From Argopecten irradians (lineage: Eukaryota > Mollusca > Bivalvia > Pectinida > Pectinidae): a DNA stretch of 64,000 bases. The position numbers were made by a program, and so were the translations under genes. Below the pieces are notes generated by a model. The model had not been told where the DNA came from. It did not search any database and was given only the letters and a program-made list of their open reading frames with translations. This document shows positions 117-64,000 of this stretch, in pieces. Positions within the stretch are counted from its first letter, which is position 1. Each line of letters starts with the position of its first letter. The stretch covers positions 13,759,765 through 13,823,764 of the forward strand of contig NC_091137.1 in the NCBI RefSeq assembly GCF_041381155.1. Direction: 5' to 3'.

Positions 117-3100
117 TTTCAAAGTATATGATGAACCCTTTGCCTGTTTTTGATCTGCCTGATACAGTAAGATAAATTTCCACGACTCCTTCTGACAAAG
201 TGGCGTTAAAGCGTTTTGTATTCCCTTTAACAACTAGTGTCTGTGTGTTGACCTTAGTGTGAATGATCCTAAATGTATCACGATCCTCGTCAACTTCAGC
301 GGCCTCTAGTCTTAATAGTAGTTGTTTCCCTTCGCCTATCTGTAAAATGTAAGTAGTTAAAATTTACGTAGTAGACAAAATGACTTCCAGTGACAAAAAA
401 CAACAAAAACAACATCCAGCTTAAATAAGAACATGATTAGCATGGGACATTTCCTTTCTATTTCAGTGAGTATTCCATTGTTTATCTCCACTTGATGTTG
501 CAATTCCCTAAGCTACACGGGCTAGTACGGCAAACATAGTTTTGTTACACTTGAGTAGTAGATAGAAGACTAACGAATTCTGATCATGCGATTTCTGGAT
601 TACCAATAATAATATGGCGATGTTTGTTTACCTTTATGGTGAATGACCATAGTGATTTATACGATAATAATTCTATGCTTTTTTATCAACTGTCAGGTAA
701 ACATATTGTTCATTGTTTCAAATCTTCGCCCTGATCTACCTTGATGACTTTTCTGCAGTCCACCGATTCTGCACCGTAGTCCCAAGGGTAGATGTTGTGA
801 CTCCGAATGATACCGACCTCTTTGTCCACCAGCTCTGGTTTGTAACGACTGCACATATTTATAACGTTGTCTGAAAATAGTAATTTTTGAAGCCTGGAAA
901 TAAAGTGTTCGCATACATTGTTCGACATAATGATGTGAAATAATTTTCACTGGTGCATCAACATTACGTTCTAAACACGGATTTATTAGTGAGACTCATA
1001 TATGTCTTTGGTTTTGGGGAATTAAGTAAGATTAGAACTATACGACATTTTTTTAAAAACGAAGACGTGGGAATAAAGTAGAGTAGAACTGTACGACAGT
1101 ATTTAGACACGAAGACGTGGGAATTAAGTAGAGTAGAACTGTAAGACAGTATTTAGACACGAAGACATGGGAATTAAGTAGAGTAGAACTGTAAGACAGT
1201 ATTTAGACACGAAGACGTGGGAATTAAGTAGAGTAGAACTGTAAGACAGTATTTAGACACGAAGACGTGGGAATTAAGTAGAGTAGAACTGTAAGACAGT
1301 ATTTAGACACGAAGACGTGGGAATTAAGTAGAGTAGAACTGTAAGACAGTATTTAGACACGAAGACGTGGAAATTAAGTAGAGTAGAACTGTAAGACAGT
1401 ATTTAGATACAAAGACGTGGGAATTAAGTAGAGTAGAACTGTAGACAGTATTTAGACACGAAGACGTGGGAATTAAGTAGAGTAGAACTGTAAGACAGTA
1501 TTTAGACACGAAGACGCGGGAATTAAGTAGAGTAGAACTGTAAGACAGTATTTAGACACAAAGACGTGGGAATTAAGTAGAGTAGAACTGTAAGACAGTA
1601 TTTAGACACGAAGACGTGGGAATTAAGTAGAGTAGAACTGTAAGACAGTATTTAGACACGAAGACGTGGGAATTAAGTAGAGTAGAACTGTAAGACAGTA
1701 TTTAGATACAAAGACGTGGGAATTAAGTAGAGTAGAACTGTACGACAGTATTAAGACACGAAGACGTGGGAATTAAGTAGAGTAGAACTGTAAGACAGTA
1801 TTTAGACACGAAGACGTGGGAATTAAGTAGAGTAGAACTGTACGACAGTATTTAGACACGAAGACGTGGGAATTAAGTAGAGTAGAACTGTAAGACAGTA
1901 TTTAGACACGAAGACGTGGGAATTAAGTAGAGTAGAACTGTAAGACAGTATTTAGACACGAAGACGTGGGAATTAAGTAGAGTAGAACTGTACGACAGTA
2001 TTTAGACACGAAGACGCGGGAATTAAGTAGAGTAGAACTGTAAGACAGTATTTAGACACGAAGACGTGGGAATTAAGTAGAGTAGAACTGTAAGACAGTA
2101 TTTAGACACGAAGACGTGGGAATTAAGTAGAGTAGAACTGTAAGACAGTATTTAGACACGAAGACGTGGGAATTAAGTAGAGTAGAACTGTAAGACAGTA
2201 TTTAGACACGAAGACGTGGGAATTAAGTAGAGTAGAACTGTAAGACAGTATTTAGACACGAAGACGTGGGAATTAAGTAGAGTAGAACTGTAAGACAGTA
2301 TTTAGACACGAAGACGTGGGAATTAAGTAGAGTAGAACTGTACGACAGTATTTAGACACGAAGACGCGGGAATTAAGTAGAGTAGAACTGTAAGACAGTA
2401 TTTAGACACGAAGACGTGGGAATTAAGTAGAGTAGAACTGTAAGACAGTATTTAGACACAAAGACGTGGGAATTAAGTAGAGTAGAACTGTACGACAGTA
2501 TTTAGACACGAAGACGTGGGAATTAAGTAGAGTAGAACTGTAAGACAGTATTTAGACACGAAGACGCGGGAATTAAGTAGAGTAGAACTGTACGACAGTA
2601 TTTAGACCACGAAGACGTGGGAATTAAGTAGAGTAGAACTGTACAACAGTATTTAGATACGAAGACGCGGGAATTATGTAGAGTAGAACTGTACGACTGT
2701 ATTTTGATACGAAGACGCGGGAATTAAGTCACCACGAAAGTAGCTTTGTTTGTAGTATACGTCTCTTCTGATGGTATACCTTGTCTTATAACACTCATGA
2801 AATATTACTGTAAATGTATAATTAACATCTATTGAAATATTACTGTAAAATGTATAATAACATCTATTGAAATATTATTAAATGTATAATTAACATCTAT
2901 TGAAATATTACTGTAAAATGTATAATTAACATCTATTGAAATATTACTGTAAAATGTATAATTAACATCTATTGAAATATTACTGTAAAATGTATAATTA
3001 ACATCTATTGAAATATTACTGTAAAATGTATAATTAACATCTATTGAAATATTACTGTAAAATGTATAATTAACATCTATTGAAATATTACTGTAAAATG

Positions 3101-6100
3101 TATAATTAACATCTATTGAAATATTACTGTAAAATGTATAATAAACATCTATTGAAATATTACTGTTAAATGTATAATTAACATCTATTGAAATATTACT
3201 GTAAAATGTATGATTAACACATCTATTGAAATATTACTGTAAAATGTATAATTAACATGAATCTATTGAAAAGTATATTACTGTAAAATGTATAATTAAC
3301 ATCTATTGAAATATTACTGTAAAATGTATAATTAACATCTATTGAAATATTACTGTAAAATGTATAATTAACATCTATTGAAATATTACTGTAAAATGTA
3401 TAATTAACATCTATTGAAATATTACTGTAAAATGTATAATTAACATCTATTGAAATATTACTGTAAAATGTATAATTAACATCTATTGAAATATTACTGT
3501 AAAATGTATAATTAACATCTATTGAAATATTACTGTAAAATGTATAATTAACATCTATTGAAATATTACTGTAAAATGTATAATTAACATCTATTGAAAT
3601 ATTACTGTAAAATGTATAATTAACATCTATTGAAATATTACTGTAAAATGTATAATTAACATCTATTGAAATATTACTGTAAAATGTATAATTAACATCT
3701 ATTGAAATATTACTGTAAAATGTATAATTAACATCTATTGAAATATTACTGTAAAATGTATAATTAACATCTATTGAAATATTACTGTAAAATGTATAAT
3801 TAACATCTATTGAAATATTACTGTAAAATGTATAATTAACATCTATTGAAATATTACTGTAAAATGTATAATTAACATCTATTGAAATATTACTGTAAAA
3901 TGTATAATTAACATCTATTGAAATATTACTGTAAAATGTATAATTAACATCTATTGAAATATTACTGTAAAATGTATGATTAACATCTATTGAAATATTA
4001 CTGTAAAATGTATAATTAACATCTATTGAAATATTACTGTAAAATGTATAATTAACATCTATTGAAATATTACTGTAAAATGTATAATTAACATCTATTG
4101 AAATATTACTGTAAAATGTATAATTAACATCTATTGAAATATTACTGTAAAATGTATAATTACATCTATTAAATATACTGTAAAATGTATAATTAACATC
4201 TATTGAAATATTACTGTAAAATGTATAATTAACATCTATTGAAATATTATGTAAATGTATAATTAACATCTATTGAAATATTACTGTAAAATGTATAATT
4301 AACATCTATTGAAATATTACTGTAAAATGTATATTAACATCTATTGAAATATTACTGTAAAATGTATGATTAACATCTATTGAAATATTACTGTAAAATG
4401 TATAATTAAAATTATTGAAATATACTGTAAAATGTTAATTAACATCTATTGAAATATTACTGTAAAATGTATGTAATTAACATCTATTGAAATATTACTG
4501 TAAAATGTATAATTAACATCTATTGAAATATTACTGTAAAATGTATAATTAACATCTATTGAAATATTACTGTAAAATGTATAATTAACATCTATTGAAA
4601 TATTACTGTAAAATGTATAATTAACATCTATTGAAATATTACTGTAAAATGTATAATTAACATCTATTGAAATATTACTGTAAAATGTATAATTAACATC
4701 TATTGAAATATTACTGTAAAATGTATGATTAACATCTATTGAAATATTACTGTAAAATGTATAATTAACATCTATTGAAATATTACTGTAAAATGTATAA
4801 TTAACATCTATTGAAATATTACTGTTAAATGTTTAATTAACATCTATTGAAATATTACTGTAAAATGTATAATTAACATCTATTGAAATATTACTGTTAA
4901 ATGTTTAATTAACATCTATTGAAACTACATCGCAGTGGTTTTTATATATATTAACAAATAAAACAATAATAGAGTGACAAAATGCACATACAAATGTGGT
5001 GTCACATATATATATGAATACTAAATCATATAAGACTAATAAAGCAAATACTGTATGAAAACTAGTTGGAAGTGTAGAGCGGTGTAAATATTGATATTTT
5101 ATTACCCAGTTTGAAATATAATGATATGTTCATTTGTTTTAACTGCAGCGACTCCGATTTTCATGCTGTTGGACCATTGAGATATTCGATATGTCTTGAT
5201 CTATGTAATGATACGATACGAGTTAATTTAATGTTTTATGATAGCCATGCGTAATCCGTTTGTTGTACGGGTGCCACTTAAAATTGTTTTAACCATTGAT
5301 ATAACCGGCTATAGATCACTTAGATTTCGAGGAAAAGGTGAATCAGACATAAATAATTCTTTGTATTGGTTATTTCATGCATGTTTACAAATCGTGTGTT
5401 CAAAGAAAACCTCTGTTTAGTTTTAAACTACACACCTTAGATCAAAAGACCTGCCGTGCTTTATCGGCAACAAAAATCGTTCAAACCCTCATTCACTACC
5501 ATAAACGAATTTTATAAATTTGATCCGGTACTTAAGAATTCGTGTAAGTAACGGCAATATTAATAGAATTTGTTCATTGTACTGGTGCGATTTGTAGATT
5601 TGAGTCATTTCTGTTCTAGCGAGGTGTTTTGTTTATAACTGAGAGTTTTACCATCTAAATATTTAATGTCCACATGATACCAATATGCACATTCGTTGAT
5701 ACTTGTATAATGTGGAATCAAATAATCTGATCGCTTTATGATTTGCCCAATATCTATTAGTGCCAGAGGGATATTATACATGTATATCAGATATTTTGTA
5801 CTTACAACACTTATTGTTGTAGTACTTCCTTGTACAGATTAACATCGATTTACATTAAGATACGTGTATTTGAATTTAGTCGTTTTTAAAACAACTATAA
5901 AATGTACCCGACCGAGGTCATGTAAAACACCCCAGCCATTGTTTGTAACTACGGCCCATTAATATTACATTCTGGTCTTATGTAGGACAATCTCTCTGTA
6001 TTTTAAAATAACGCTTTATTTCGATTGGTTAATTCAGCCAGGAAGTGAAATGTTTTGATTTGGTGAAGACCATATTAGCTTCCGGAACTGATCACAGGTG

Positions 6101-38400: not shown

Positions 38401-41400
38401 CTAGATATATTTACTAGTATGCAACTCAAAATTACCTCATTCAAACGATCATGATTTTTGTTATTGCCCTCCTCTTGTTCAGCGACCAACTTTTTCTCCT
38501 CAGCTAGCAGCTCTGTTCTCTTCACATCTGCCTTTAACACAGCCTCAATAGAGGGAGTCTCATCAGCTACAACCTCTGTAAAATTTAATTTATACCTTTA
38601 TAATATTCCTGGGCATTCAACAGGCTGCCTAGTATGGAAAACATTCTTTAAGAATATTTATAGCATTAGGAAATCACTTTTAACAATTGATTTTTGTAAA
38701 AAATCTTCTCTATTTTTAGTATCATCAAATGACATTTTATCCATCAAATGGAATAAACAGATGATATGAAAATTGGATCATTTGTTTATATGTTGTTTTT
38801 CTCTTGAAAGTGATAAGTGATTGAATATTGACTCCATATGTTACAAGTGCGGTATTACAGGAACTATTTTGTGGATGATGACACTTGCATCCTCAATATA
38901 GGGACCGCAGAATCAAACCAAAAATAGATTCTTGGAAATCCCCTTTTGGGCATAGAGATTTCATAGAGAGGTGAATGTTTCGGAGCCTGCTGATTTGGTA
39001 TTCAGGGCGCATCAGTTTCAAATGTTTAATTTGTGGGTTGGGCAATACATGTAGATGTAAAATATGTAAAGAAATTTTAAAATTCTGTCAAGTGTGTGTC
39101 TGACAGGGGGAGGTAATCAATATTGGAATTTCATGAATATTTTGGTCAATTTTTGGTGCGGAATTCAACATAAGATGGAACCCCCCACATAAAAGTTTAG
39201 CAAGATGGTAGATCTTTATTTCTTTTTATTCACAGGTATGCCAGATGCCATTCTTCAAAATTAGTGACAGGTGACCAGACTTGAAAACTCCATTTAACCT
39301 GGACAGTGGCAAACTTTGACATTAATGTTTCAATCAGAAATTTTGATTTTGCATTGAGTTGTAGCGAGATGACATAGATAGGAACTAGCATAGAGGTAAG
39401 TTTGTTTTCTATCCCATAGAGGTAAGTTTGTTTTCTATCCCATAGAGGTAAGTTTGTTTTCTATCCCATAGAGGTAAGTTTGTTTTCTATCCCATAGAGG
39501 TAAGTTTGTTTTCTATCCCATAGAGGTAAGTTTGTTTTCTATCCCATAGAGGTAAGTTTGTTTTCTATCCCATAGAGGTAAGTTTGTTTTCTATCCCATA
39601 GAGGTAAGTTTGTTTTCTATCCCATAGAGGTAAGTTTGTTTTCTATCCCATAGAGGTAAGTTTGTTTTCTATCCCATAGAGGTAAGTTTGTTTTCTATCC
39701 CATAGAGGTAAGTTTGTTTTCTATCCCATAGAGGTAAGTTTGTTTTCTATCCCATAGAGGTAAGTTTGTTTTCTATCCCATAGAGGTAAGTTTGTTTTCT
39801 ATCCCATAGAGGTAAGTTTGTTTTCTATCCCATAGAGGTAAGTTTGTTTTCTATCCCATAGAGGTAAGTTTGTTTTCTATCCCATAGAGGTAAGTTTGTT
39901 TTCTATCCCATAGAGGTAAGTTTGTTTTCTATCCCATAGAGGTAAGTTTGTTTTCTATCCCATAGAGGTAAGTTTGTTTTCTATCCCATAGAGGTAAGTT
40001 TGTTTTCTATCCCATAGAGGTAAGTTTGTTTTCTATCCCATAGAGGTAAGTTTGTTTTCTATCCCATAGAGGTAAGTTTGTTTTCTATCCATAGAGGTAA
40101 GTTTGTTTTCTATCCCATAGAGGTAAGTTTGTTTTCTATCCCATAGAGGTAAGTTTGTTTTCTATCCCATAGAGGTAAGTTTGTTTTCTATCCCATAGAG
40201 GTAAGTTTGTTTTCTATCCCATAGAGGTAAGTTTGTTTTCTATCCCATAGAGGTAAGTTTGTTTTCTATCCCATAGAGGTAAGTTTGTTTTCTATCCCAT
40301 AGAGGTAAGTTTGTTTTCTATCCCATAGAGGTAAGTTTGTTTTCTATCCCATAGAGGTAAGTTTGTTTTCTATCCTATAGAGGTAAGTTTGTTTTCTATC
40401 CCATAGAGGTAAGTTTGTTTCTATCCTATAGAGGTAAGTTTGTTTTCTATCCTATAGAGGTAAGTTTGTTTTTTATCCAAGTTTCATTATTATGGAGCTG
40501 AAAAGTAATTGTCAGGAAGTATTTTTCAAGCGACCAATTAGAGCCTTTACCCAGTAAATCATGAGACAACATGGTATCTGAGGTACAGGCTATTTTCTAT
40601 TGTTCCAAGATATTTAATTACATTTCTACACTATGAAACATCACACCAAATTAGATTAAAGACAAATTTAAATTGTATGATCATTCCATTGTCATATCTT
40701 ATACATTTTGTTAACGATTACAGTGAAACCTCACCTTACGACCACCTCAGAATTAAGACCACCCCGCTATTACGGGCACTTGTTTTCAGTCCCGTTATTT
40801 TCCCCTCTATATCTTTGTACTGGTCATCTCAGTATTACGACCACCCCGCTATTCCGTATTACGACCAGCCCAGGCAGTCCCAACGACCACTGATCAACGG
40901 TAATTGACCCCCTAATTACGACCATTCACCTGTGTCAGTTTACCGTGTGTACAGCAGTCCTTCAGACCACTAGCCAACGCTAATTGACCCCTTCATTACG
41001 ACCATTCACCCGTGTCCGTCAATCGCTTGTCAAGTGACAGACCGTTACCTGTACGGTCGGTTGTGTACTAAGCGGGGTATTGGAGTGACGGAATCGAGGT
41101 CAATTATAATCCAATTAATTACCCGATATATACGCATAATTACTGTGACCAAAAGAAAGCATAGGACTTTTGATGGTAACCATTGTTTAGCCAAGACGAC
41201 CAGTGTGTACGTGCGGATTTCGATCTTCGGTCGTCGCCCTTGTCACATGTTGACCTAGAAGCTAGGTGGCGCTTTGAAAGTGAAACTAGACCAATTAATC
41301 GGATCACTTGAAAGAGTGTGTGTAGTAATCGATCTTTTGTTTACTAATCAAAACATTAACATGGGCTCTAATGATTTTACGGTAGCAGTATTTAAAGCCC

Positions 41401-44400
41401 TATCTTCACGGGTGAGTAAAATAAACTTCGTGGATCTAAGGCGTTTCGTTATGATTGTGAAATTAATCCGGTAAGAATGTCGCCGTATTTTTGTTTTGAC
41501 AAAACTTCAATTAAATTTCCGTACAAACACGATAACTTTCGAACGTTTGTATGTAATATTTCCACCTCTTTTAAATTCATATGCAATTTAAATCAAGAAG
41601 GGTACACCACGTAAACGAAACGAGCTGCCGCTGAATAAGAAAGTTGAACTCCTTATACAACTGTAGCAAAGGACGTTGTCAACTCGCCGAACAAGATTGC
41701 ATCGGTAAAACACAAGTGCAGTCGATATTGAAGAGAAAGGCAGAAATCTTTGTGTGTATGTTATGTGAATTAGAATTTGTTAATTAGATTATTTAATTTA
41801 AAACAAAATATCTTCTTTATTTTCTTTATGCTTATTCAACTAAATAAAAATATACACGTCTATTATGTAACTGTATACATATGAGACATACATTGTATAA
41901 TCATAATGTGCAGAGTTACGGTTCTTACTGATTAGAAGTCAATCTGATGCACCTCGGTAATAAGACCACCCCGCTATTAAGACCACTTTCACTCAGACCC
42001 TCAAGTGGTCTTAATAGAGAGGTTTTACTGTATACCACCTTTGACTAAAATTGGTCACAGGGCCAACAGAGTTGTAGAACTTGACCCAGAATTACGTATA
42101 TGGAGGTGTATATATATATTGTAACATACCTTAGATATGTTAATAAGCACAGTCAAATTTACACCAAATGCAGAAAATTGTAAATTATGATTCATTAGTG
42201 CAGATATAAATATGGTAAGCGCAATTTGATGGTTCAATACTGGAAATACCCTTTTACATAAGTTAGTGCTGTAAATTAATTAGTGCTTCAAAGACACCAA
42301 AAAATAAAACTAGTAAATAAGACACCATTAAAATAAAATAAAACTACCGGTAAAATAAGACACTTAAAATAAAAAACCGCTAAAATAAGACCATTAAAAT
42401 AAAACTCCGCTAAAATAAGACACATAAATAAAAATACCGCTAAAATAAGACACCATTAAAATAAAACTACCGCTAAAATCCCTTTGTTTACAGTATAGGT
42501 ATATGAGGCATGTTTGTATATGAGAATAAAAACTGTAGTCTTACAGTACAATAACAAACTATGTTTCCTGTGCTTCATAGAACTTAGTAACTTGAACTTA
42601 CCCTGTTCACAATACAGAACATCTATGTTTGATGGGATATAAAGTGCCCTTTTCTGTATGTGTCTCAGCAAAGTTGTCTTTCCGTGTCTGTAAATAAAAA
42701 TTAATATCTACAATTGACAGAATAATTGATCAGTGCTACAAAGAACTTGGCACAATCTTAACTCATAAGCATTTCATTTAGAAGTTTTAGAAAGTAAATA
42801 TTTAAGATAAAGACTCCAGTTTTCATATTGTTTTCTGGTCGCTCTCAACATGGGGTATTTAGAACTACATACATTGATGTTTTCACATTTCAGATTTGAA
42901 TAGCCCACTATCTGATGGTGGCAAGTTGAAAATCAAACCGAAATTTTTCATTTTATTTTCTACTTATTAGGTCTTATTCATCTGCCTATGTATATCATCC
43001 TAGTCCTAGCTTTGACATTTTTTGTTTACCCATTAGGTCCCACAAGTCCATATCTTCGTCCAGCAGTAATATGTAAAGTGGCATTCACAAATAGATCTTT
43101 TCCAGCTGCAGATATAGAAAAATTCTCCACCTGGAACAGAACACCACCTCATACATCATCACAGATAAACCAGCCGTGCAACAGTACATTACCTTGTTGT
43201 CTAGCTGAGAAAGTATAACCTTGATATCTTGTTAGTTGTCTAGCTGTTTCACACCTTAATATCTAGTTGGTTGTCTAGCTGAGATAGTATAACCTTGATA
43301 TCTAGTTAGTTGTCTACTTGTGTCATACCTTGATATCTAGTTGGTGGTCTAACTGAGACAGTATTACTTTGATATCTAGTTGGTTGCCTAACTGAGACAG
43401 TATAACCTTGATATCTAGTTAGTTGTCTAGCTGTGTCATCCCTCGATATCAAGTTTGTCGTCTAGCTGTGTCATACCTTGATATATAGTTAGTTGTCTAG
43501 CTGAGATAGTATTACCTTGATATCTAGTTAGTTGTCTAGCTGTGTCATACCTTGATATCTAGTTAGTTGTCTAGCTGTGACATACCATGATATCTATTTA
43601 GTTGTCTAGCTGTGACATACCATGATATCTAGTTAGTTGTCATAGCTGAGATACAGTACTTAATGCGTCTAACATTCCCTCGAAACGAACGCGAAACGCA
43701 AAACGCAAACGAAATGTTAAACGAAAACGAACGAAAACGCAAACGAAAAACGAAAAACGCAAACGAAAAACGATTAGCGTAAAACGAAAAACGCGTTTCG
43801 TCAAGCGCTAAACGCAAAACGAAAAACGCAAACGAAAAACGAAAAACGTAAACGAAGTGAAAGCGTGACCGGAAGACCAGAATGCAATCATAAATGTCGA
43901 TCGGGACTTCGGTAGCTTAGTGATCCGGATTCTGAAAGCGATGTCTATTTTACGTTCGCAACTTTGATTTAGTACGATTTATCATTATGAAAAATATATC
44001 TTGTCTTAGAAAATATGCAATTGTTATAAATATATTACCAATAAGTATGTGATTACGTATATATATCCAAGCATTAATACATTTTTTTTAACTTATAAAG
44101 CGAGATTTTAAAAATAATTATAAAACATGCATGTGTATAAATAGTCTTCAATCAATGCTAGTATTTATAAGTCTGCTCTGAATTTGTCACACATACTAGT
44201 ACTGTTTTATAGAAATTATCAGTTTCAGAAAAGAAAACACTTAAGAAGAACTTCTTATTTTAGTGTAAGTATTGTGAACATGTACGTTTGATTACTGCAA
44301 GTATAAACCCTAGGCCTAGCGGTTAGGTAGTTATATTTTACATGTATATATATATGACTCCAGAGGAGGTCCCCGTACCGGCCGTTATATAGATATCAAT

Positions 44401-47400
44401 GTGGACACTCACCTGTAGCATTTACATGTACCCGACCCATTTGGAGGTCTTATATAAATTTGCTTTATAATTCACGGACAACAAATGTACATTTGTACAA
44501 CACTCTACCCCTCTCCATCCCCACTCCCCCTCTCGATTTACCTGCTTTCATTTATACCATTTGTTATTTGACAGCGGCATATTTTGATTTTGTGTCAACT
44601 TGTATCACACCTGGTCAAGTGCAGTCACCCATGAACAATGGCTCACTGATACGTAGCCTCAGACGCGCACGGCCCCTCACATGTTTATTTAGGCTACGAT
44701 GTGTATAATACGCGTACGTGACCCCGTGCATGTACATGTACCAAAGCATACCACAAAAACAACAATTTTGTGTTATTCTAGTCATTACAGAAAACCAGCT
44801 CTATGGTGTTTTATTCCTCGTGTGTTTTGTTACATCAACATACCAATAAAATACATGATCAATCATATCAATGGCCAATACGTGTAAATACAGAGATACA
44901 GTTGAATGTACATGTATCAACTGTCAGTTCGTGTTGTATATGTATATATATATAAGTCAATTATGATTTGATATCTATTGACATCGGTACGTTCTTAATT
45001 TCACATAAAATATGTAAAAAAAAGTATTCGTTGTATGGTTGAGATATTATTAATTGTGTTATTTTATTATTAGAATAGTGTGTACCACTAGAAAATAATG
45101 TGATCCAATGCTAACAGTGATGAGTCGGATATAATTTTTTTATAATGTATGCACCAGTGAGTTATATAATATATTATGACCAGCAGTACGGCGTCCTGTG
45201 GCGTGAGTTCACACCTGTGTAATCCTTCAGTCCACTTTATCGAGCCCCGCGGGTGTTACAAGTGTATATTGTACCTGTCCCCCTGTAGCACATACACGTG
45301 TATAGTTAGTACTATATAAGACCTTGCAGAAAGGTATACAAATGATCATTACTATCAAACAATGTGTGTAGGTTACACGTATCAAATGTAATTAATGTCT
45401 AGATACAAAAGGATTTTTTTTTAAATTTATTTGTGTATGTTTACTACATTGTCCAGAACACGTAAATTTATCGGCCTACACCGTCGTTTGACTCCACTTT
45501 TAGTTTAGCCAACACATGCGCAGTCAACCATTCCTAATCAAATATCAATGAATAACATCCGGTAAACGAATTGGAACGCAAACGCACGCAAACGCAAACG
45601 AACGAAAGCCAAAACGAATCAAAACGCAAACGAACGCAAACGAAATCGAATCGAAACGCAAACGAACGAAAACGCGAAACGCAAACGAAAAACGCTCGAC
45701 GAAACAAAACGCAAACGAAACTAAACGAAAGAAACGCAAACGAATCTAAAACGCGTTTGAGGGAATGTTAGACGCATTAAGTACTGTAGTATTACCTTGA
45801 TATCTAGTTAGTTGTCTAGCTGTGTCATACCTTGATATCTAGTTAGTTGTCTAGCTGTGACATACCTTGATATCTAGTTAGTTGTCTAGCTGTGTCATAC
45901 CTTGATATCTAGTTAGTTGTCTAGCTGTGACATACCATGATATCTAGTTAGTTGTCTAGCTGTGTCATACCTTGATATCTAGTTAGTTGTCTAGCTGAGA
46001 TAGTATTACCTTGATATCTAGTTAGTTGTCTAGTTGATATCTAGTTAGTTGTCTAGCTGTGTCATACCTTGATATCTAGTTAGTTGTCTAGCTGTGTCAT
46101 ACCTTGATATCTAGTTAGTTGTCTAGCTGTGTCATACCTTGATATCTAGTTAGTTGTCTAGCTGAGATAGTATTACCTTGATATCTAGTTGGTTGTCTAG
46201 CTGTGTCATACCTTCATATCTAGTTAGTTGTCTAGCTGAGATAGTATTGCCTTGATATCTAGTTAGTTGTCTAGTTGTATCATACCTTGATATCTAGTTA
46301 GTTGTCTAGCTGTGTCATACCTTGATATCTAGTTGGTTGTCTAGCTGTGTCAAACCTTGATATATAGTTAGTTGTCTAGCTGAGATAGTATTATCTTGAT
46401 ATCTAGTTAGTTGACTATCTAATCATACCTAGATATCTAGTTAGTTTTCTAGCTGTGACAAACCATGACATCTAGTTGGTTGCCTAACTGAGACAGTATT
46501 ACCTTGATATCTAGTTAATTGTCTAGCTGTGTCATCCCTCGATATCTAGTTAGTTGTCTAGCTGTGTCATACCTTGATATCTAGTTGGTTGTCTAGCTGT
46601 GTCATACCTTGATATCTAGTTAGTTGTCTAGCTGTGTCATACCTTGATATCTAGTTAGTTGTCTAGCTGTGTCATACCTTGATATCTAGTTAGTTGTCTA
46701 GCTGTGTTATACCTTGATATCTAGTTGGTTGTCTAGCTGTGATCCCTTGGTTGACCTCTCTGCTTGTGATACAGAAAACTGTTCGATACTGTCAGGCCCA
46801 AGACTCTCCAACTGTTTTTGATATTCGGCCTTCAAACCAAACATATGATTATCAGTTACAAGTCAGGTATTATATCAAAGGTTTTGGAGATCCTGACCAT
46901 CCTCCATATAAATGGTAACTTGTTATTTTGAAATACATTGATGGCTTTAGGCCGAGGATGTTGTCTTGACTTGAGGTGATTCAAATTTTTTAATATCAAT
47001 CCTTAAACAATCCTGGTTCTCCTCTAGATCTATGAAAGACAGATTTATATGATATTGATAAGATGTGGATATGAAGGATAGGGATAACTTGAGGGTCACA
47101 GAATCTTGTAATACTCAAGGCTTGTTGAGGGTTTTTCAACTTTCTGTAATCCTGAAGGTAGAATATTTCAATCCTTCCTATCCACATGAATGAGAATTTT
47201 TGTCTTGTACATCAACATTAATATTAGATATTACATCTTTTTTAGCATCCATTAATACAAGCATGTTTTGTGAAATTTGTATGAAAATTTTATAGAGATT
47301 GTTGATGCTATGACGTCATGAGATTCTATTCCATGGTTAGCCACATCATATCGCCTCAGATGACATGAGCATATTGCATGATATATGTCAGTGTCACACT

Positions 47401-52186: not shown

Positions 52187-53010
52187 TGTGTCACCTTGGT
52201 CGTGTAGAGTTCGCTAGATCGTTTACTATAATCTCCGTCTATGTCAGTATGTTCCTGTTCTGATCTTTCACAATAATTGACGTGAAACCGGAAGCATGTG
52301 GGTACCTTCTCGAAAGAACTTACGCAACATCCGGTCCATGGTTAGTCGATCAGACGCTTGATCAAGCTGACGGTGACGCTTGATACCAAATGCGTCATCG
52401 ATAAAAATATTTATTTATGAAAACTTAATTGAGTTTTTAGCATGATTTACGTGTCATCTGAGCAGTAGATTCGTACTTGTTATCAAAGATAATCATTGAC
52501 TACAATTATCAATATGCCTTTGTAATTTGTTATGTATTCATAGGACGTAAGCGGCGAGACCAACACTGCAAGGTAATTATAATGTAAAGTGAAAGTAAAG
52601 TGGATATTGAACGATTTTTCTTCTCTTCCTGTTTAACGCAATTCCATCGATGATGATTCTATTGATGTGATAAAAAGAATTTGTATTTAGGGAGTGGGAT
52701 TGAGATTTTCAAAGTCCTTCACATTTTGGACTTGTGACTACATGTATATACAGCTGTATAAGCTGGCTCTACTCTAACATTGTTATCTCGACGTGACACT
52801 TTTGAGATATTACGTGTCGTCGTTTCTAACAGCAAAAGAATGTCCGATAAAAATAAGTTAAAAAATAGACTCTATACTGATCAAAACTGATGAGCACCTG
52901 TCTATGTACAATGTGCGTAAAATTTAATATACATGCATCTATTTACAGATGTGTATACGCAATCAATTATTATAGGTACATGTATTTACATTTCAGTTTT
53001 TTCTTTTCAG
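52187..53010. promoter_or_regulatory. Divergent promoter region between ABCF1 and the PLAAT-like gene
   Basis: The two genes point away from each other with 835 bp between start codons. The ABCF1 5' UTR lies just above 52186. The PLAAT-like 5' UTR is probably spliced, because a strong acceptor (TTTTTTCTTTTCAG, ending 53010) sits 11 nt before its ATG, so a non-coding first exon should lie inside this interval. No clear TATA box was seen for either gene. Confidence 0.45.
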
Positions 53011-53021
53011 AAATTGATAAA

Positions 53022-56000
53022 ATGTCTTCTGGTTCTGGATCACTGAACACCCACAATGCTACTCTCCTGAATGAACTTGAGATTGGGGATATGGTAGAGT
53101 TTCCAAGAGGGTGGTATTCACATTGGGGTGTTTATATAGGTAAATTGAACTGAGATAATACACATTCATATTGAGTATCCCCCTAGGATCTAGGACTCTA
53201 ACTAGAGTTTCTTGTGTGATAATTCAGAGCTCTGCCAACTGAGCAATGAAGCATGCTCCGTCAGCTGAGTATACTCACACGCTAAAATTCTACTGTATAT
53301 GTTACACCATCCTTATAGGCATTCAGCTCCGAAACACCAAGTCATTTAGACAAAAGGTGTGAATAAATATGCCAAGGTGATACCATTTGTCCCTGGCAAT
53401 GTACTTACATCTATAATATTACCATCAATATTAAGGATATGTATGTTTCTGCTAAGTGGTTTATATTGAAAATTAACCTGTAAGCTCCCTCTTTAAATGA
53501 CCATTACACAAATTGATGTTTGGCATATATTTTATTAATGTAAGACAGCTGATATGAAAAATCAAATAAGACAGACAAAATACAGTTCATCATTGTATAT
53601 ACGTATATGTATTTGACCCAGTATTTAGCACCCAAGATGCTTAAAAAATTTAACGAAATAAGTGGGCACTTCATAGAAACAAATTTGGACTAGCCTTTAA
53701 TAAAAGTATTCTAGAAAGTAAGCCATTAATCAATTTGCAAAAGATATCAATATTACAGGGAAACCAACACAGTTTCAATATTTTCAGTCTGCATGTAATT
53801 GGAAGTAAGTTAAATTGAAGCCTAAAAATGCTTGAGGGGCACCTTGAATACGGTATATATACATGTATAAGGCCAAGATAAATTCAAAGTAAAATCAAAA
53901 TAATTTCTATGGAATATATATTCAGCCACTTTAGGGCCTTCTTCAGTCCAAAATAACAATAACACGTGTTCGTCTACATGTACAATAGAGTTATTGATGA
54001 ATGGACTGCATTATTATTTTGATGAAGTTTCAGCCATTATTTTCTCTGTATCAGGTGATGGGAAGATTGTGCACCTTTCAGGAGGGGATAATGATGGTAT
54101 CAATGGTGCATTCAACTCCGGCAGTGTTTTCACAATCTGCGGGAAGCGATTCAACAAGGCTTTTGTCAAAATTGATGATTTTTGGGAAGTTGTCCTGGGA
54201 TGTAATGCCAAGAAGAACAATGGAAAGGACAGGAAATGCAGGTCAATGAGTATATGAATTATCTTCAAATTTTTGTTACAGCTGTATACAATGAATCATA
54301 TATATGTACAACAGCTGGACTTGCAATAATCCAGACACCAATTAATAGTCCGGAAAAATCACAATCCAAATGGAAATGTCAGGATGATTTGGATTGGAAA
54401 CATTAAATTTGTGTCTGAATCCAGTGCTCCATATAGAGGGAGTCAAGGAGTAAAATACTCCCAAAACATAGCTAAATACTCCTAATAGCTAAATACTCCC
54501 AAAACATAGCTACATACTCCCAAAACATAGCTAAATACTCCCAAAACATAGCTACATACTCCCTGGTTTCTGAAATTGTGGGACAAAAGTCATTCCAACC
54601 GTGGGGACAAAAAATTGTCAAATTTTTGAGGCGATCTGCCCCTTTATCAAGACACACAAAACGAACACAATTACATAATATGAGGCAAACAGTAATACAG
54701 GAAATTGTTTCTGAAACTGCCTAATACTCCCTTGATATTATGAATACAATTGTGTTTCCATCATTGACAGTAAGGATTTTCCTTGAAATTAATGGATCAT
54801 CTCTGAAATCTATCTGATTTATTGAAAGATGATGTTTACAATAACATCAACATTAAACATAGTTATTTGTAGAAATAGTGTAAAAGTCTTTATCATATCA
54901 TGTACTGGTACATTTGTACAATTTCAAAGTTTTTATACTGCTATAATACGACTACAAACATTTTCACTGTAAGCCCTTATTTGAGGGTCTTTGAAATTGA
55001 ATTTGTTCATTCGCATTTATCTCCTATTTACTTCTTATGGGAAAAAAACCCCAGAAATATGGTACTCCCTTCAAACAAAAATTATCTGGAGCACTGAGCT
55101 TATTAAGGTCTTTATGTTCTTGGTATTTGCTTTTAAGTACCTTTTTTTGGTAGAAAAGGTTACTTGCCTCCGCATTTGAATATTTCTTCCGGGACTTTGT
55201 TCATACTTAATGTAATAAACGTTTTTTTTTGTTTTGTTTTTTTGGATAAATACCATTTCTAATACATGTATAACAAATTGTGGTACTTGTCACTGAAATA
55301 AGCACATGTCTAGATGCAAATTGTTGATCTGACAGTATAAAGGATGAATATTCTTAACAATATAATGTATGCTTGGTGTATTTTCAGACCACGTCAAGCA
55401 CATGAAATAGTTCAAAATGCAATGGAGATGGTTGGAGAGATAGGCTATAATGTCCTTTGGAACAACTGTGAACATTTTGCAGCTTTCATTAGATATGGGA
55501 AAAAGTGGTCTGAGCAGGTAAGTTATTAGGTCACCTGGGACGAAGTCTCAAGTGATCTATATATGTATTCAAGTCACTTTTTGTCCACGTTGTCCGTCGT
55601 AGGTCTGTAAACAATTTACATTTTCGATTTCTTCTCCAAAACTGCTGAAGCAATTTCAATGAAATTTTGCAGAAACCTTCTAAGGCATAAGGCCAATCGA
55701 AATTGTGAACTGTATGGTCCCCACCCCCCAGGGGGCTGTGGGAGGGGCCAAAAGGGGTAAAATTGACTAAAATTTCAAAAATCTTTTTCTCCACTCACAG
55801 ATGTGGTGGAATCAAATACTTTTCATAGATTGAAAGGTCTTAAGGTTCTTTATAAAATTTGTGAATTATATGACCCTGGAGTCTCACGTTTTCCCTTGGG
55901 GAGGGGGTCAAGTTTACTATAGTTGATATAGGGAAAACACACATTTATGATCATTTTTCGCTCAATTTTCACAGGAAATGAGTCAAACTTTATTAGACTT

Positions 56001-56586
56001 ATAAGCCTGAGATATAGTATTCTAACATCAATATCAGTTGCTGACCCCCTGGGGGACCAGAGGGACGAGGCTAAACAGGGTCAAAATGACTTACAAATTT
56101 CAAAAAATCTTCTTCTGAGTTCACAGGTTTGATGAAAGCAAATACTCTTCATAGATTAAAACCGACTTCAAGGGCCAGTATATTAGTGTTTATATGTCTT
56201 TGTTTCATTCTAAACAAACTCAGGTGAACCTTAAGGCCCATGGGCCTCTTATTGAAGAAGAACAAGTTGGGAAATATATCATAGACACATCATCAACCAT
56301 TCCATCACATAAAATATATAGGAACCCGTAGAAAAGGACATCACATTCCCATTTAATTATTGGATTTGTACAAAATTGAATGACATAAAAGTACTCAATA
56401 TACATGTAATTTACCTCTGTTTCTCTTTAGATTAATGTGTTTACATTATGTGTACTGTAAATGTACCCATTGCAGGCTGATACCGCCCTGGTAACTGTCG
56501 TGGTGACTGGTGCTGTAGCTGCCGTTGGACTCTTGTTGAGTAGCCTTTTTGGTGGCACAGAGAAAAATAAGGAGGAAAGAAAATAG
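53022..56586 (+). CDS. PLAAT/HRASLS-like phospholipase A/acyltransferase (LRAT domain), complete, 4 exons
   Basis: Exons 53022-53139, 54055-54241, 55388-55517 and 56476-56586 join to 546 nt (181 aa) with matching phases. The LRAT/NlpC-P60 fold is shown by GDMVEFPRGWYSHWGVYIG (catalytic His34), GKIVHLSGG (His46) and NNCEHFAAFIRYG (nucleophile Cys129), the family's Cys-His-His set. The C-terminal exon encodes a hydrophobic segment (about residues 148-167, ALVTVVVTGAVAAVGLLLSS) followed by a charged tail, as in membrane-anchored PLAATs. Family members transfer acyl chains between phospholipids or to phosphatidylethanolamine on intracellular membranes; the substrate here is unknown. Length fits the family (about 160-180 aa). 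ATG 53022 was chosen because it is the first after the 5' UTR acceptor at 53010. An upstream in-frame ATG (52890) would require retaining that intron. Confidence 0.9.
53190..53280 (-). repeat. Possible tRNA-derived SINE fragment
   Basis: The minus strand contains GCTCAGTTGGCAGAGC, matching a tRNA A-box/D-arm. The downstream B-box is poor and no cloverleaf is evident. It lies in intron 1 of the PLAAT-like gene. Confidence 0.3.
54422..55096. mobile_element. Dispersed element with inverted ends CAGTGCTCCA
   Basis: The left end CAGTGCTCCATATAGAG and the right end ATTATCTGGAGCACTG are inverted. The same right end occurs at 49104-49125, so the family is dispersed. Inside, at 54464-54562, about five copies of a 21-bp unit (AAATACTCCCAAAACATAGC plus T) are present. 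No target-site duplication could be identified and there is no coding capacity. Confidence 0.5.
55526..56255. repeat. Dispersed repeat in PLAAT-like intron 3
   Basis: It begins TTAGGTCACCTGGGACGAAG just after the exon-3 donor and ends CTCAGGTGAACCTTAAGGCC followed by CATGGGCCTCTT. The ends resemble those of the 57.4-61.3 kb element, with different interior units (CCCCCAGGGGGCTGTGGG, TTTCAAAAATCTT). No coding capacity. Confidence 0.65.
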
Positions 56587-57350
56587 TTTTGGATACAGTG
56601 GATTTTTTAATTATTTTCAAGTATTTTGAGATGAATATATAAATGTGACTAAGAAATGAAATCAAGCTTGTTTTTTGAAGACCAATCATAGTTTTGATGG
56701 ATTGTTACCATATATATATTGATGTTGTTGGCATTTTGATTTGTGCAGTTAACACTTTACTTTGTGATATCAGATAAACAATATCAGTGTCCAATTGTTC
56801 ATCCTCATTTTTGTCTCTGGCTTTAAATCATTGCACGCTTTTAACAGAATTATATGAAACCTGGTTTAGCTTTAAATCCTCAGAACGGAAATTATTATAG
56901 CTCTGTTTGATCTATCATACAGGAGATCGTGAATAATTCATTGAATATTACATACACTGAAATACACTATATTACTTTGCAAATTAAATTAATATTGTAT
57001 CCTAATTTATTTACTTATATTACTATACTTATGCTATAAGAAAATGTCTGCGTTGAATTACCACAATCTTGATGTAGGTTTAACAGAGTTATTTCCCCTG
57101 AAACTAAATCATTGTGTTTAGTAGTAATACTTTACAAAGAAATTGTGGTTCAATGAAATTTAACAAAGGTTGATAAATTACTGAAATTATTTAGACTTGC
57201 ATTGATGATATATTTATTGTTGCGTGATACCATGTGTACATGTATTATAGAATTATGGAAATAATCTTAAGATCAGAAACCTATTTTTAAGGTTATGAAA
57301 TGTTTGTGAAGCTAGGCTCTAGTTGATTAGATACTGTAGTGCAAGATGCA

Positions 57351-57418: not shown

Positions 57419-60400
57419 TTAGGTCATCTGACCCAAAGGGTCAGGATGATCTATTGTCATCATGCACCGATCGTCATCGTGCACAGTCCGCCGTGCGCTG
57501 TGCTTAAACTTTTCATTTAAACAACTTCTTCTCAATAACCTAAAGGCCCAGGGTACTGATATTTGGTCTGTAGCATGCTGGGACAAAGGACTACCAAGTT
57601 TGTTCAAATGAATGACCTTGACCTTCATTCAATGTCACAGGGGTCAAAAAGGCTAAAATCTTTAAACGACTTCTTCTCAAGACCCAGAAGGCCCAGGGTA
57701 CTGATATTTGGCTTGTAGCATGCTGGGATGAAGGGCTACCAAGTTTGTTCAAATAAATGACCTTGACCTTCATTCAATGTCACAGGGGTCAAATAGGCTT
57801 AAAATCCTTTAAACAACTTCTTGTGAATAACTAAGAGGCCTAGAGACCTGATATTGGGCCTGTAACATACCTGGATGAAGGGCTATCTAGTTTGGTCAAA
57901 TGAATGACCTTGATCTACATTCAAGGTCACAGGGGTCAAAAAGGCTAAAATCTTAAACAACTTCTTATCAATAACCAGTAGTCCCAGGGTACTGATATTT
58001 GGCATGTAGTATGCTGGAATGAACGGCTACCAAGTTTGTTCAAATGAATGACCTTGATCTTCATTCAAGGTCACAGGGGTCATATAGGTTAAAAATTTTA
58101 AACGACTTCTTCTCAAGAACAGAAAGGCCCAGGATATTCATATTGGGCCTGCAGCATGCTGGGATGAAGTGCTACCAAGTTTGTTAAAATAAACGACCTT
58201 GACCTTCATTCAAGGTCAATGGGTCAAATAGGCTAAAATTCCTTTAAACAACTTCTTTTGAATAACTAAGAGGCCTAGAGACCTGATATTGGGCCTGTGA
58301 CATGCTAGGATGAAGGCTATAAAGTTTGTTCAAATGAATGACATTGATCTTCATTCAAGGTCACAGGGGTCAAAAAGGCTGAAATCTTTAAACGAATTCT
58401 TCTCAAGAACCAAAATGCCCAGGATACTCATATTGGGAGTGGAGCATGCTTGGATGAAGGGCTACCAAGTTTGTTCAAATGGATGACCTTGACCTTCATT
58501 CAAGGTCACAGGGGTCAAATTGGCTAAAATATTTTAAACGACTTTTTAGGTCATCTGACCCAAAGGGTCAGGATGAGCTATTGTCATCATGCACCGTCCA
58601 TCGTCGTGCGCCGTCCCGTCCGCCGCCGTCCGCCGTCAGTCAGTCGTCCGCCGTCCGCCGTCCGTAAATTTTTCATTCAAACGACTTCTTCTCAATAACC
58701 GGAAGGCCCAGGGTACTCATATTTGGCCTGTAGGTTGCTGGGATGAAGAGCTACCAAGTTTGTTCAAATAAATGACCTTGACCTTCATTCAAGGTCACAG
58801 GGGTCAAATAGGCTAAAATCCTTTAAAAAAACTTCTTGTGAATAACTAAGAGGCCTAGAGACCTGATATTAGGCCTGTGGCATGCTGGGATGAAGGGCTA
58901 CCAAGTTTGTTCAAATGAATAACCTTGACCTTCATTCAAGGTCACAGGGGTCAAATAGGCTAAAATCTTTAAACGACTTCTTCTCAAGAACCAGAAGGCC
59001 CAGGGTACTGATATTGGGCCTGTGACATGCTGGGATGAAGGGCTACCAAGTTTGTTCAAATAAATGACCTTGACCTTCATTCAAGGTCACAGGGGTCAAA
59101 TAGGCTAAAATCCTTTAAAAAAACTTCTTGTGAATAACTAAGAGGCCTAGAGACCTGATATTAGGCCTGTGGCATGCTGGGATGAAGGGCTACCAAGTTT
59201 GTTCAAATAGATGACCTTGACCTTCATTCAAGGTCACGGGGGTCAAATAGGCTTAAATCTTTAAACGACTTCTTCTCAAGAACCAGAAGGCCCAGGGTAC
59301 TGATATTAGGCCTGTGACATGCTGGGATGAAGGGCTACCAAGTTTGTTCAAATAAATGACCTTGACCTTCATTCAAGGTCACAGGGGTCAAATAGGCTAA
59401 AATCCTTTAAAAAACTTCTTGTGAATAACTAAAAGGCCTGGAGACCTGATATTAGGCCTGTGGCATGCTGGGATAAAGAGCTACCAAGTTTGTTCAAATA
59501 GATGACCTTGACCTTCATTCAAGGTCACGAAGGTCAAATAGGCTAAAATCTTTAAACGACTTCTTCTCAAGAACCAGAAGGCCCAGGGTACTGATATTGG
59601 GCCTATGACATGCTGGGATGAAGGGCTACCAAGTTTGTTCAAATAAATGACCTTGACCTTCATTCAAGGTCACAGGGGTCAAATAGGCTAAAATTCTTTA
59701 AAAAAAATTCTTGTGAATAACTAAGAGGCCTAGAGACCTGATATTAGGCCTGTTGCATGCTAGGATGAAGGGCTGCCAAGTTTGTTCAAATGAATGACCT
59801 TGACCTTCATTCAAGGTCACGGGGGTCAAATAGGCTTAAATCTTTTAAACAACTTCTTCTCAAGAACCAGAAGGCCCAGGGTACTGATATTAGGCCTGTG
59901 ACATGCTGGGATGAAGGGCTACCAAGTTTGTTCAAATAAATGACCTTGACCTTCATTCAAGGTCACAGGGGTCAAATAGGCTAAAATCCTTAAAAAAACT
60001 TCTTGTGAATAACTAAGAGGCCTAGAGACCTGATATTGGGCCTGTTGCATGCTGGGAATGGGCTGCCAAGTTTGTTCAAATGAATGACCTTGACCTTCAC
60101 TTCATTCAAGGTCACAGGGGTCATATAGATTAAAAATTTTAAACGACTTCTTCTCAAGAACAGAAAGGCCCAGGATATTCATATTGGCCTGCAGCATGCT
60201 GGGATGAAGTGCTACCAAGTTTGTTAAAATAAACGACCTTGACCTTCATTCTTCAATGGGTCAAAGCTAAAATCCTTTAAACAACTTCTTGTGAATAACT
60301 AAGAGCCCACCTGATATTGGCCTGTAACATCCTGGATATTAGGCCAAATGAATGACTTGCTGGATTCAAGGTCAAGGGGGGCTAAACTTAAACAAATTCT

Positions 60401-61345
60401 TTTTGTTCCAGGGTAAATAGTATGCTGGAAAAACGGCTACCAAGTTTCTTCAAATTGACCCTTCATTCAAGGTCACGAGGGTCAAATAGGCTAAAATCTT
60501 TCAACCACTTCTTCTCAAGAACCAGAAGGCCCAGGGTACTGATATTGGGCCTGTGACATGCTGGGATGAAGGGCTACCAAGTTTGTTCAAATAAATGACC
60601 TTGACCTTCATTCAAGGTCACAGGGGTCAAATAGGCTAAAATCATTTAAAAACTTGTGAATAACTAAGAGGCCTGGAGACCTGATATTAGGCCTGTGGTA
60701 TGCTGGGATGAAGGGCTACCAAGTTTGTTCAAATAGATGACCTTGACCTTCATTCAAGGTCCTGAGGGTCAAATAGGCTAAAATCTTTAAACGACTTCTT
60801 CTCAAGAACCAGAAGGCCCAGGGTACTGATATTGGGCATGTAGTATGCTGGGATGAAGGGCTACCAAGTTTGTTCAAATGAATTACCTTGACCTTCAATC
60901 AAGGTCACGGGTCAAATAGGCTAAAATCTTTAAATGACTATGTTGTATTGTACTAATAGTCAGATGACCGTTAAGGCCCATGGGCTAAAATATTTTAAAC
61001 GACTTTTTAGAATAAATAGGAGGTCTAGAGACCTGATATTGGGCCTTTGACATGCTGGGATAAAGGGCTATCAAGTTTGTTCAAATGAATGACCTTGATC
61101 TTCATTGAAGGTCACAGGGGTCAAAAGGCTTAAATCTTTAAACAACTTCTGCTCAAGAACCAAAGGGCCCAGGATACTCATATTGGGCCTGCAGCATGCT
61201 AGGATGAAGGGCTACCAAGTTTGTTCAAATGAATGACCTTGACCTTCATTCAAGGTCACAGGGGTCAAATATGCTAAAATATTTAAACGACTACATTGTG
61301 TTGTGCTAATAGTCAGATGACTGTTAAGGCCCAGGGGCCTCTTGT
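57419..61345. repeat. Nested dispersed elements made of about 145-bp tandem units
   Basis: The element starts TTAGGTCATCTGACCCAAAG and ends GTTAAGGCCCATGGGC (60985) and TTAAGGCCCAGGGGCCTCTT (about 61340). A second start lies inside at 58545, implying nesting or internal duplication. Two unit types alternate: one with CTTCTTCTCAAGAACCAGAA, the other with CTTCTTGTGAATAACTAAGA. They form a dimer period of about 291 bp. Every unit carries TGACCTTGACCTTCATTCAA followed by GGTCACAGGGGTCA. Local deletions at 60240-60450 scramble some units. The recurrent 60-codon minus-strand frames are artefacts of the unit. Confidence 0.9.
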
Positions 61346-61796
61346 GATATTTAAACCATGTACATTTGGCGTGCTTTGTTTTTCTTTGTGTTTTCGTAAC
61401 AGAATTTCAGGGTTTAGCTGACTGTTTGATCGCGATCAATGTACCTCATATATTTGTTAACACTTTTCATATACAAGCATTTGAATATTGACAGGTATAG
61501 TTTACTTAAGGTTTTACAATATTTGTTTTGTTTCTATTCGGTGCTTTAATACACTTCATACATGTATAGCGTCTGTGATAATTTGTCATTCGTAATTATT
61601 TACTAAATTAAAGAAATTATTGCATTGTATATATTATAAACTACTATCCATGAAACAAGCATATGTGATTAAATGTATATGTATCTTAGTTTGTTAGAAT
61701 TATGATTTATTTGATCAAGTTTGATGTTGCATAATTTATACAGAATTCATTATATATTCATATATATACACTTATATTTTCATATATATACACTTA
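61346..61796. other. AT-rich spacer, no gene seen
   Basis: Unique-looking AT-rich stretch separating two blocks of the 145-bp repeat. Confidence 0.5.
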
Positions 61797-64000
61797 AGTT
61801 TGTTCAAATGAATGACCTTGACCTTCATTCAAGGTCAATGGGTCAAATAGGCTAAAATTCCTTTAAACAACTTCTTGTGAATAACTAAGAGGCCTAGAGA
61901 CCTGATATTGGGCCTGTGACATGCTAGGATGAAGGCTATAAAGTTTGTTCAAATGAATGACATTGATCTTCATTCAAGGTCACAGGGGTCAAAAAGGCTG
62001 AAATCTTTAAACGAATTCTTCTCAAGAACCAAAATGCCCAGGATACTCATATTGGGAGTGGAGCATGCTTGGATGAAGGGCTACCAAGTTTGTTCAAATG
62101 AATGACCTTGACCTTCATTCAAGGTCACAGGGGTCAAATTGGCTAAAATATTTTAAACGACTTTTTAGGTCATCTGACCCAAAGGGTCAGGATGAGCTAT
62201 TGTCATCATGCACCGTCCATCGTCGTGCGCCGTCCGCCGTCCGCCGTCCGCCGTCAGTCGTCCGCCGTCCGCCGTCCGTAAACTTTTCATTCAAACGACT
62301 TCTTCTCAATAACCGGAAGGCCCAGGGTACTCATATTTGGCCTGTAGGTTGCTGGGATGAAGAGCTACCAAGTTTGTTCAAATAAATGACCTTGACCTTC
62401 ATTCAAGGTCACAGGGGTCAAAAAGGCTAAAATCTTTAAACGACTTCTTCTCAAGAACCAGAAGGCCCAGGGTACTGATATTGGGCCTGAAGTATGCTGG
62501 GATGAAGGGCTACCAAGTTTGTTCAAATAAATGACCTTGACCTTCATTCAAGGTCACAGGGGTCAAATAGGCTAAAATCCTTTAAAAAAACTTCTTGTGA
62601 ATAACTAAGAGGCCTAGAGACCTGATATTAGGCCTGTGGCATGCTGGGATGAAGGGCTACCAAGTTTGTTCAAATGAATGACCTTGACCTTCATTCAAGG
62701 TCACAGGGGTCAAATAGGCTAAAATCTTTAAACGACTTCTTCTCAAGAACCAGAAGGCCCAGGGTACTGATATTGGGCCTGTAGCATGCTGGGATGAAGG
62801 GCTACCAAGTTTGTTCAAATAAATGACCTTGACCTTCATTCAAGGTCACAGGGGTCAAATAGGCTAAAATCTTTAAACGACTTCTTGGAAATAACTAGGA
62901 GGCCTGGAGACCTGATATTGGGTCTGTGACATGCTGGGATGAAGGGCTACCCAGTTTGTTCAAATGAATGACCTTGACCTTCATTCAAGGTCACAGGGGT
63001 CAAATAGGCTAAAATCTTTAAACGACTTCTTCTCAAGAACCAGAAGGCCCAGGGTACTGATATTGGGCCTGTGACATGCTGGGATGAAGGGCTACCAAGT
63101 TTGTTCAAATAAATGACCTTGACCTTCATTCAAGGTCACAGGGGTCAAATAGGCTAAAATCCTTTAAAAAACTTCTTGTGAATAACTAAGAGGCCTAGAG
63201 ACCTGATATTAGGCCTGTGGCATGCTGGGATGAAGGGCTACCAAGTTTGTTCAAATAAATGACCTTGACCTTCATTCAAGGTCACGAAGGTCAAATAGGC
63301 TAAAATCTTTAAACGACTTCTTCTCAAGAACCAGAAGGCCCAGGGTACTGATATTGGGCCTATGACATGCTGGGATGAAGGGCTACCAAGTTTGTTCAAA
63401 TAAATGACCTTGACCTTCATTCAAGGTCACAGGGGTCAAATAGGCTAAAATTCTTTAAAAAAATTCTTGTGAATAACTAAGAGGCCTAGAGACCTGATAT
63501 TAGGCCTGTTGCATGCTAGGATGAAGGGCTGCCAAGTTTGTTCAAATGAATGACCTTGACCTTCATTCAAGGTCACGGGGGTCAAATAGGCTTAAATCTT
63601 TAAACAACTTCTTCTCAAGAACCAGAAGGCCCAGGGTACTGATATTAGGCCTGTGACATGCTGGGATGAAGGGCTACCAAGTTTGTTCAAATAGATGACC
63701 TTGACCTTCATTCTAGGTCACGAGGGTCAAATAGGCTAAAATCTTTAAACGACTTCTTCTCAAGAACCAGAAGGCCCAGGGTACTGATATTGGGCCTATG
63801 ACATGCTGGGATGAAGGGCTACCAAGTTTGTTCAAATAAATGACCTTGACCTTCATTCAAGGTTACAGGGGTCAAATAGGCTAAAATCCTTAAAAAAACT
63901 TCTTGTGAATAACTAAGAGGCCTAGAGACCTGATATTAGGCCTGTTGCATGCTGGGATGAAGGGCTGCCAAGTTTGTTCAAATGAATGACCTTGACCTTC
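61797..64000. repeat. Second block of about 145-bp units, continues past right edge
   Basis: Same unit family as 57.4-61.3 kb. Its left part matches 58190-58780 almost base for base, including the TTAGGTCATCTGACCCAAAG start and CCGTCCGCCGTCCG run at 62160-62280. Later parts match 58900-60000, indicating a segmental duplication rather than independent amplification. Confidence 0.9.

Follow-up and report, generated by a model that had tools for sequence, protein, structure and literature searches.

Intron 5 of the ABCF1 gene of the scallop Argopecten irradians contains 39 copies of its own 5' splice site in addition to the real one, each accompanied by a copy of the end of exon 5, and the real junction is simply the first in the resulting tandem array. 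The gene lies in a stretch of 64,000 nucleotides (NCBI RefSeq assembly GCF_041381155.1, contig NC_091137.1, forward-strand positions 13,759,765 to 13,823,764), here called the window, in whose coordinates all positions are given, those of the gene being on the minus strand; a slash within a motif marks the junction. We regard intron 5 as a passive minisatellite that spans an exon-intron boundary and is spliced at its exon-proximal copy, a reading to which we assign a probability of about 0.85 and in which the gene, the array, its unit, the precedence of the exon sequence and one spliced product are directly supported.

ABCF1 and the array in its fifth intron

The gene was located by tblastn with a human ABCF1 probe and is present in full as 19 coding exons and 18 introns, running from 52186 (start of exon 1) to 17421 (end of exon 19) and amounting to 2196 nt and 731 residues, as judged from the exon model and the scallop homologues. 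The model is identical to the probe at 415 of 618 aligned positions, and of the relatives listed, the best 120 of 7978, those with a name that come nearest are scallops, namely Ylistrum balloti (91%), Pecten maximus (90%) and Mizuhopecten yessoensis (two models, 82 and 83%). It should be mentioned that in both Mizuhopecten models (P0004 and P0005) the residues of exon 7 are replaced by unrelated letters, possibly through a mis-predicted exon. The frame of the model is uninterrupted over all 731 residues when intron 5 is spliced at its first donor, and a deposited protein, P0001, which is 100% identical by BLASTP and by alignment carries one substitution and lacks one glutamate relative to the window, reads LDIKVENF across the join of exons 5 and 6, precisely as the canonical junction predicts; neither of the two differences falls at this junction. 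P0001 comes from a contig of 2438 bases, whereas the gene extends over 34.8 kb, so that the protein has its source in a spliced product, either an mRNA or at minimum a processed copy of such. The entry bears the source tag 'lgn', which presumably denotes an SRA assembly collection.

Exon 5 (46829-46713) terminates in CACAGCTAGACAACCAACTAGATATCAAG, after which the intron opens with GTATAA, and its last 29 bases (46741-46713), consisting of two bases and the nine codons of QLDNQLDIK, form the exonic part of a 35-bp unit that is completed by the six intronic bases GTATGA. The array consensus differs from the exon end at a single one of these 29 bases, a change of CAA to TAA. In the output of Tandem Repeats Finder (TRF) the 35-bp array occupies two stretches, 43218-43648 and 45793-46741, and the second extends 29 bases into exon 5. 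A motif search returned 43 raw matches, of which numbers 27-29 lie within an inserted element and were discarded as spurious, which leaves 40 junction motifs when the real one is counted. The original prediction, in which about 40 copies of the intron's own splice site were proposed, with a unit made of the exon end plus the donor and the real junction as first of the series, is thus borne out on these points.

The intron itself occupies 46712-43131 (3582 nt, of which 2133 belong to the insert and not to the array). It begins with the real 5' splice site, AAG/GTATAA (intronic bases 46712-46707), which is given by the gene model and is present in P0001, and the exon-side part of the array (46712-45787) holds 26 further junction motifs, from 46678 to 45796, as well as the start of a unit split by the insert. 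The acceptor-side part (43651-43193) has 13 motifs, from 43621, which closes the split unit, to 43193, where the final one reads CAAG/GTAATG, and there remain 62 nt of non-repeat sequence (43192-43131) with the real acceptor TTCCAG/GTGGAG. GT is present at positions +1 and +2 in 35 of the 40 motifs and AG/GT at the unit boundary in 29 of the 39 intronic units, three of which are identical to the exon 5 29-mer, while a full 39-bp variant, mostly starting with GTAATACT, accounts for nine.

These copies are confined to the intron in question. A 26-mer around donor 5 has 25 near copies (at most five mismatches) on the minus strand of the window, all within intron 5, and the corresponding 26-mer of the intron 9 acceptor has 80, all within intron 9; none were found there for the remaining 34 of the 36 ABCF1 junctions, acceptor 5 and donor 9 included. 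As a control, 1500 random 26-mers were drawn from the non-array parts of the gene, and 33 of these had at least one near copy, nine had two and none had more.

The element that interrupts the array (43654-45786, 2133 bp) has terminal inverted repeats, with arms of 33 nt, counting a TA, that are 97% complementary, and sits within a single unit of the 39-bp type, flanked by TA on either side (43652-43653 and 45787-45788). When the flanks are rejoined without it they yield a 40-nt unit, equal to the 39-nt type plus one extra base, and since a unit is thereby restored the insertion is later than the array. The element is transposon-like, with repeats rich in AACGAA and AACGCA inside both ends, and the TA would be its target duplication. 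This interruption was absent from the original prediction, as was the observation, described below, that most copies are closer to the donor consensus than the real site.

Origin of the units

An array that differs from the exon at one base in 29 does not of itself reveal which came first, and neither does a tree of the units, whose branches are short and which lacks a clear root; the direction of copying can therefore not be read from the units alone. The tree was likewise uninformative as to the founder, which the original prediction had proposed to infer from an alignment of all units. Both facts leave room for the idea that the repeat was already present in the intron and that exon 5 was extended into it as the splice site moved, but the protein makes this scarcely credible. 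For this comparison 28 ABCF1 proteins, hand-chosen from the 120 listed and including P0001, were aligned. All nine residues of QLDNQLDIK recur in Pecten, Ylistrum and both Mizuhopecten models, P0006 has one residue different, the form in Mytilus coruscus is LDNQLDIK, and D183, I184 and K185 do not vary among the 28. Conservation of the nonapeptide across scallops together with the invariant DIK implies that the exon sequence is old and the intronic copies derived, as originally predicted, and the array of intron 9, which copies codons of the equally invariant DNYLQ, likewise speaks against an extension of the exon. On these grounds a repeat-first origin was rejected, and the exon 5 sequence is the ancestor of its intronic copies.

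In the passive reading a segment of 29 exonic and six intronic bases on the two sides of the exon 5 donor would have been duplicated in tandem, and slippage or unequal exchange may then have expanded the array to about 40 units, a growth that would include one or more block duplications and the emergence of the 39-bp variant, before a transposon-like insertion broke it. A block duplication is indeed suggested by the unit tree, since units 5 and 35, 6 and 36, and 7 and 37 pair (support 0.93, 0.71 and 0.72) as expected from such an event. Growth from the exon side is less evident: the mean number of mismatches to the exon is 1.88 in units 1-26 and 2.55 in units 31-41 (P 0.096, units 30 and 42 excluded), and this comparison along the array gave no clear gradient. 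Units past the first are intronic and would drift. The two GT columns are conserved at 0.95 and 0.89 (38 units), as against 0.92-1.0 in the exonic columns just before and 0.66-0.89 in the intronic columns just after, and the GT of the units is hence not specially kept.

Arrays in other introns and comparison with known systems

Intron 9 is the mirror case on the acceptor side, being made up mostly of copies of its own acceptor. Its array (37772-34480) has a 36-bp unit consisting of TATTGACATGGTCTGTTTTGTGTTAG, a stretch of 26 bases of the intron that includes the acceptor, followed across the junction by TTACCTACAG, ten bases of exon 10 that encode part of DNYLQ, and it accordingly reaches ten bases into exon 10 (34489-34480), with the real acceptor as the last of 93 acceptor motifs. 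AG is intact in all 93, although the search pattern allowed three errors and badly decayed units could escape it, and each of the 92 other acceptors places a stop in the insert. In intron 3 (49286-49178) a 39-bp unit with six exonic bases carries three donor copies of the form AAAAG/GTAAA, the real one at 49281 and the others at 49242 and 49202, spaced 39 and 40 nt apart, and this repeat may show how the same process begins. Intron 14 is nearly all array (27802-19455, 8.3 kb, 23/46 bp), but starts only at intron position +8, so that the junction is not repeated and donor 14 has no copies.

A side observation concerns intron 7, where a 26-bp unit is repeated 42 times at 39389-40478 (99% matches) and bears GAGGTAAGTTT on the plus strand. 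The RNA of the gene therefore carries ACUUACCU once per unit, the letters of the 5' end of U1 RNA.

Whether arrays favor junctions was addressed with ten intronic arrays hand-picked from 56 TRF rows, leaving out rows outside the gene, in the inserted element or in exon 3, overlapping duplicates and the very short rows of intron 7, and counting the intron 5 array, both halves and the insert, as one. Of the ten, three extend across a junction and one more comes within 10 nt, where 0.57-2.48 would be expected. Random seeding over all residual intron predicts 1.53 spanning and 1.77 within 10 nt (P 0.18 and 0.08), and seeding of each array in its own residual intron 2.01 and 2.48 (P 0.31 and 0.17). 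If the three repeats of about 150 bp are omitted and seven of the ten kept, the P values become 0.017 and 0.003, or 0.10 and 0.024 respectively, but this omission was chosen within the same script and without prior reason, and it is the source of the lower values. Since P may be as low as 0.003 or as high as 0.31, depending on the null and the slack allowed, a preference for junctions is possible but not demonstrated.

The closest known kind of sequence is the 'mirages' of amphioxus, minisatellite-like repeats across exon-intron boundaries in Adh3 and the globin genes BflGb6 and BflGb9, for which Canestro et al. 2002 is cited (PMC3087553). They occur on the donor or the acceptor side, have AG/GT in many but not all units, are unstable in length, with three and six units in the two BflGb6 haplotypes, and are reported to leave regular splicing undisturbed (PMC3087553). 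The ABCF1 units likewise span the boundary, with 29 exonic and six intronic bases in intron 5 and 26 intronic and ten exonic bases in intron 9, and in intron 5 splice signals are likewise found in many but not all units; by analogy in these two features, boundary span and splice signals, the ABCF1 arrays are best placed with the mirage minisatellites. Edge units of mirages are held to escape homogenisation, and in intron 5 the final unit is divergent and only 27 nt long, while the GTATAA of the real donor is found in no other motif, but mismatches to the exon, as given above, do not differ clearly along the array. The ABCF1 arrays differ from the amphioxus cases in belonging to a bivalve gene, in having 40 and 93 junction motifs as against the three and six units given for BflGb6, and in that donor-side and acceptor-side arrays are found in one gene. 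A limited literature search that included scallop and bivalve met no report of such arrays in molluscs. To judge from the ABCF1 case, mirages may well occur outside amphioxus.

Two further parallels deserve mention. Minisatellites at exon-intron boundaries are also described among the tandem repeats of human segmental duplications (PMC2812944), whose units average about 30 bp and some of which lie at such boundaries. Tandem duplication of a boundary segment is furthermore the basis of the AGGT model of intron gain, for which a potato RdRp case is given (PMC4974935), but in ABCF1 only one boundary of each intron is repeated. The lack of near copies of acceptor 5 and donor 9 on the minus strand of the window implies that an existing intron was enlarged and no new one made, and intron gain by duplication was rejected for this reason. 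ABCF1 offers a natural test of intron growth by copying of an intron's own boundaries.

Choice among splice sites and other features of the window

Use of the first copy may be understood from exon definition, which probably pairs the acceptor of exon 5 with the nearest donor across this 117-nt exon. Transcripts from any other donor would run straight into a stop and would probably decay. Indeed all 39 other donors lead directly to LDIKV-stop, as GTA TAA then follows immediately upon AAG. The original prediction had placed the stop in the TAA that most units carry instead of the CAA of the exon, and while the majority itself stands (TAA in 30 of the 40 motifs, CAA in eight, comprising the exon and seven intronic units, and other codons in two), it is not what determines the stop, since LDIKV-stop arises before this codon is reached and the CAA copies are therefore no safer than the TAA copies.

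Several observations weigh against a merely passive array. The real donor AAG/GTATAA is weak when scored with a weight matrix, having A at +5, and at 4.52 bits ranks only 16 of the 18 ABCF1 donors, while 28 of the 39 other copies outscore it, 16 of these at 8.07 with G kept at +5. Pairing energy with U1 ranks the real donor 14 of 18, and 23 of the 39 are equal or better, seven of them strictly better. The last copy would furthermore leave an intron of 62 nt. The failure of the copies is thus not explained by their sequence, nor is the choice of the first site explained by its strength, and canonical splicing rests on one spliced product that is known as a protein. Finally, that a single gene has three arrays across a junction and a fourth next to one may mean more than passive drift, although the P values given above extend up to 0.31. 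On the side of the passive reading, predicted single-strandedness is greatest at the real donor among the 40 motifs, where it equals that of the last (0.73; range 0.09-0.73; folding windows of 240 nt).

The strength of the copies and the immediate stop that all of them cause could be taken to mean that they are regulated decoys, which by drawing splicing to downstream donors would give degraded LDIKV-stop transcripts, with copy number tuning ABCF1 output. Human IFI6 (6-16) reportedly has a minisatellite with multiple splice donors, to go by the title of Turri et al. 1995. Two downstream repeat units are described as serving as donors in this gene (PMC4526556), and by analogy the repeated donors at the end of exon 5 might be used as well, but in ABCF1 any other donor of intron 5 would give an immediate stop. 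Against regulation it also counts that the single product examined, P0001, is canonical and that the GT of the decoys is not specially kept, and we consider such a role improbable.

Recursive splicing is a still weaker candidate. The AG/GT at the boundary of 29 of the 39 units could serve as ratchet points, each step regenerating ATCAAG/GTATGA, and the frequent C-to-T change creates a branch-point-like CTAAC in 28 of the 39 units that is absent from the exon 29-mer; a splice-site repeat would then have enabled its own recursive splicing and the stepwise removal of a long intron. No pyrimidine tract precedes the AAG of the units, however, and in the unit alignment roughly twelve bases at most separate CTAAC from the AG, a second AG being among them, which makes this very unlikely. 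We therefore favor the passive boundary-spanning minisatellite, an array that probably has no function. Dozens of near-identical 5' splice sites behind one exon and nearly a hundred 3' splice sites before another, in a conserved gene from which a normal protein is still made, in any case constitute a natural test of how the spliceosome chooses among many equal sites.

Beyond ABCF1, a neighbouring gene outlined by eye at 52900-56600 on the plus strand is transcribed away from it, and its open reading frame (ORF) at 55341-55529 matches an LRAT domain; the gene is presumably PLAAT-like. Exons at 117-870 on the minus strand resemble a CUB-domain gene by eye, with large arrays upstream at 1017-2729 and 2798-4924, and three ORFs tried in this region gave no Pfam match. 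A long array of a 145-bp repeat occupies 57516-64000 and runs to the end of the window.

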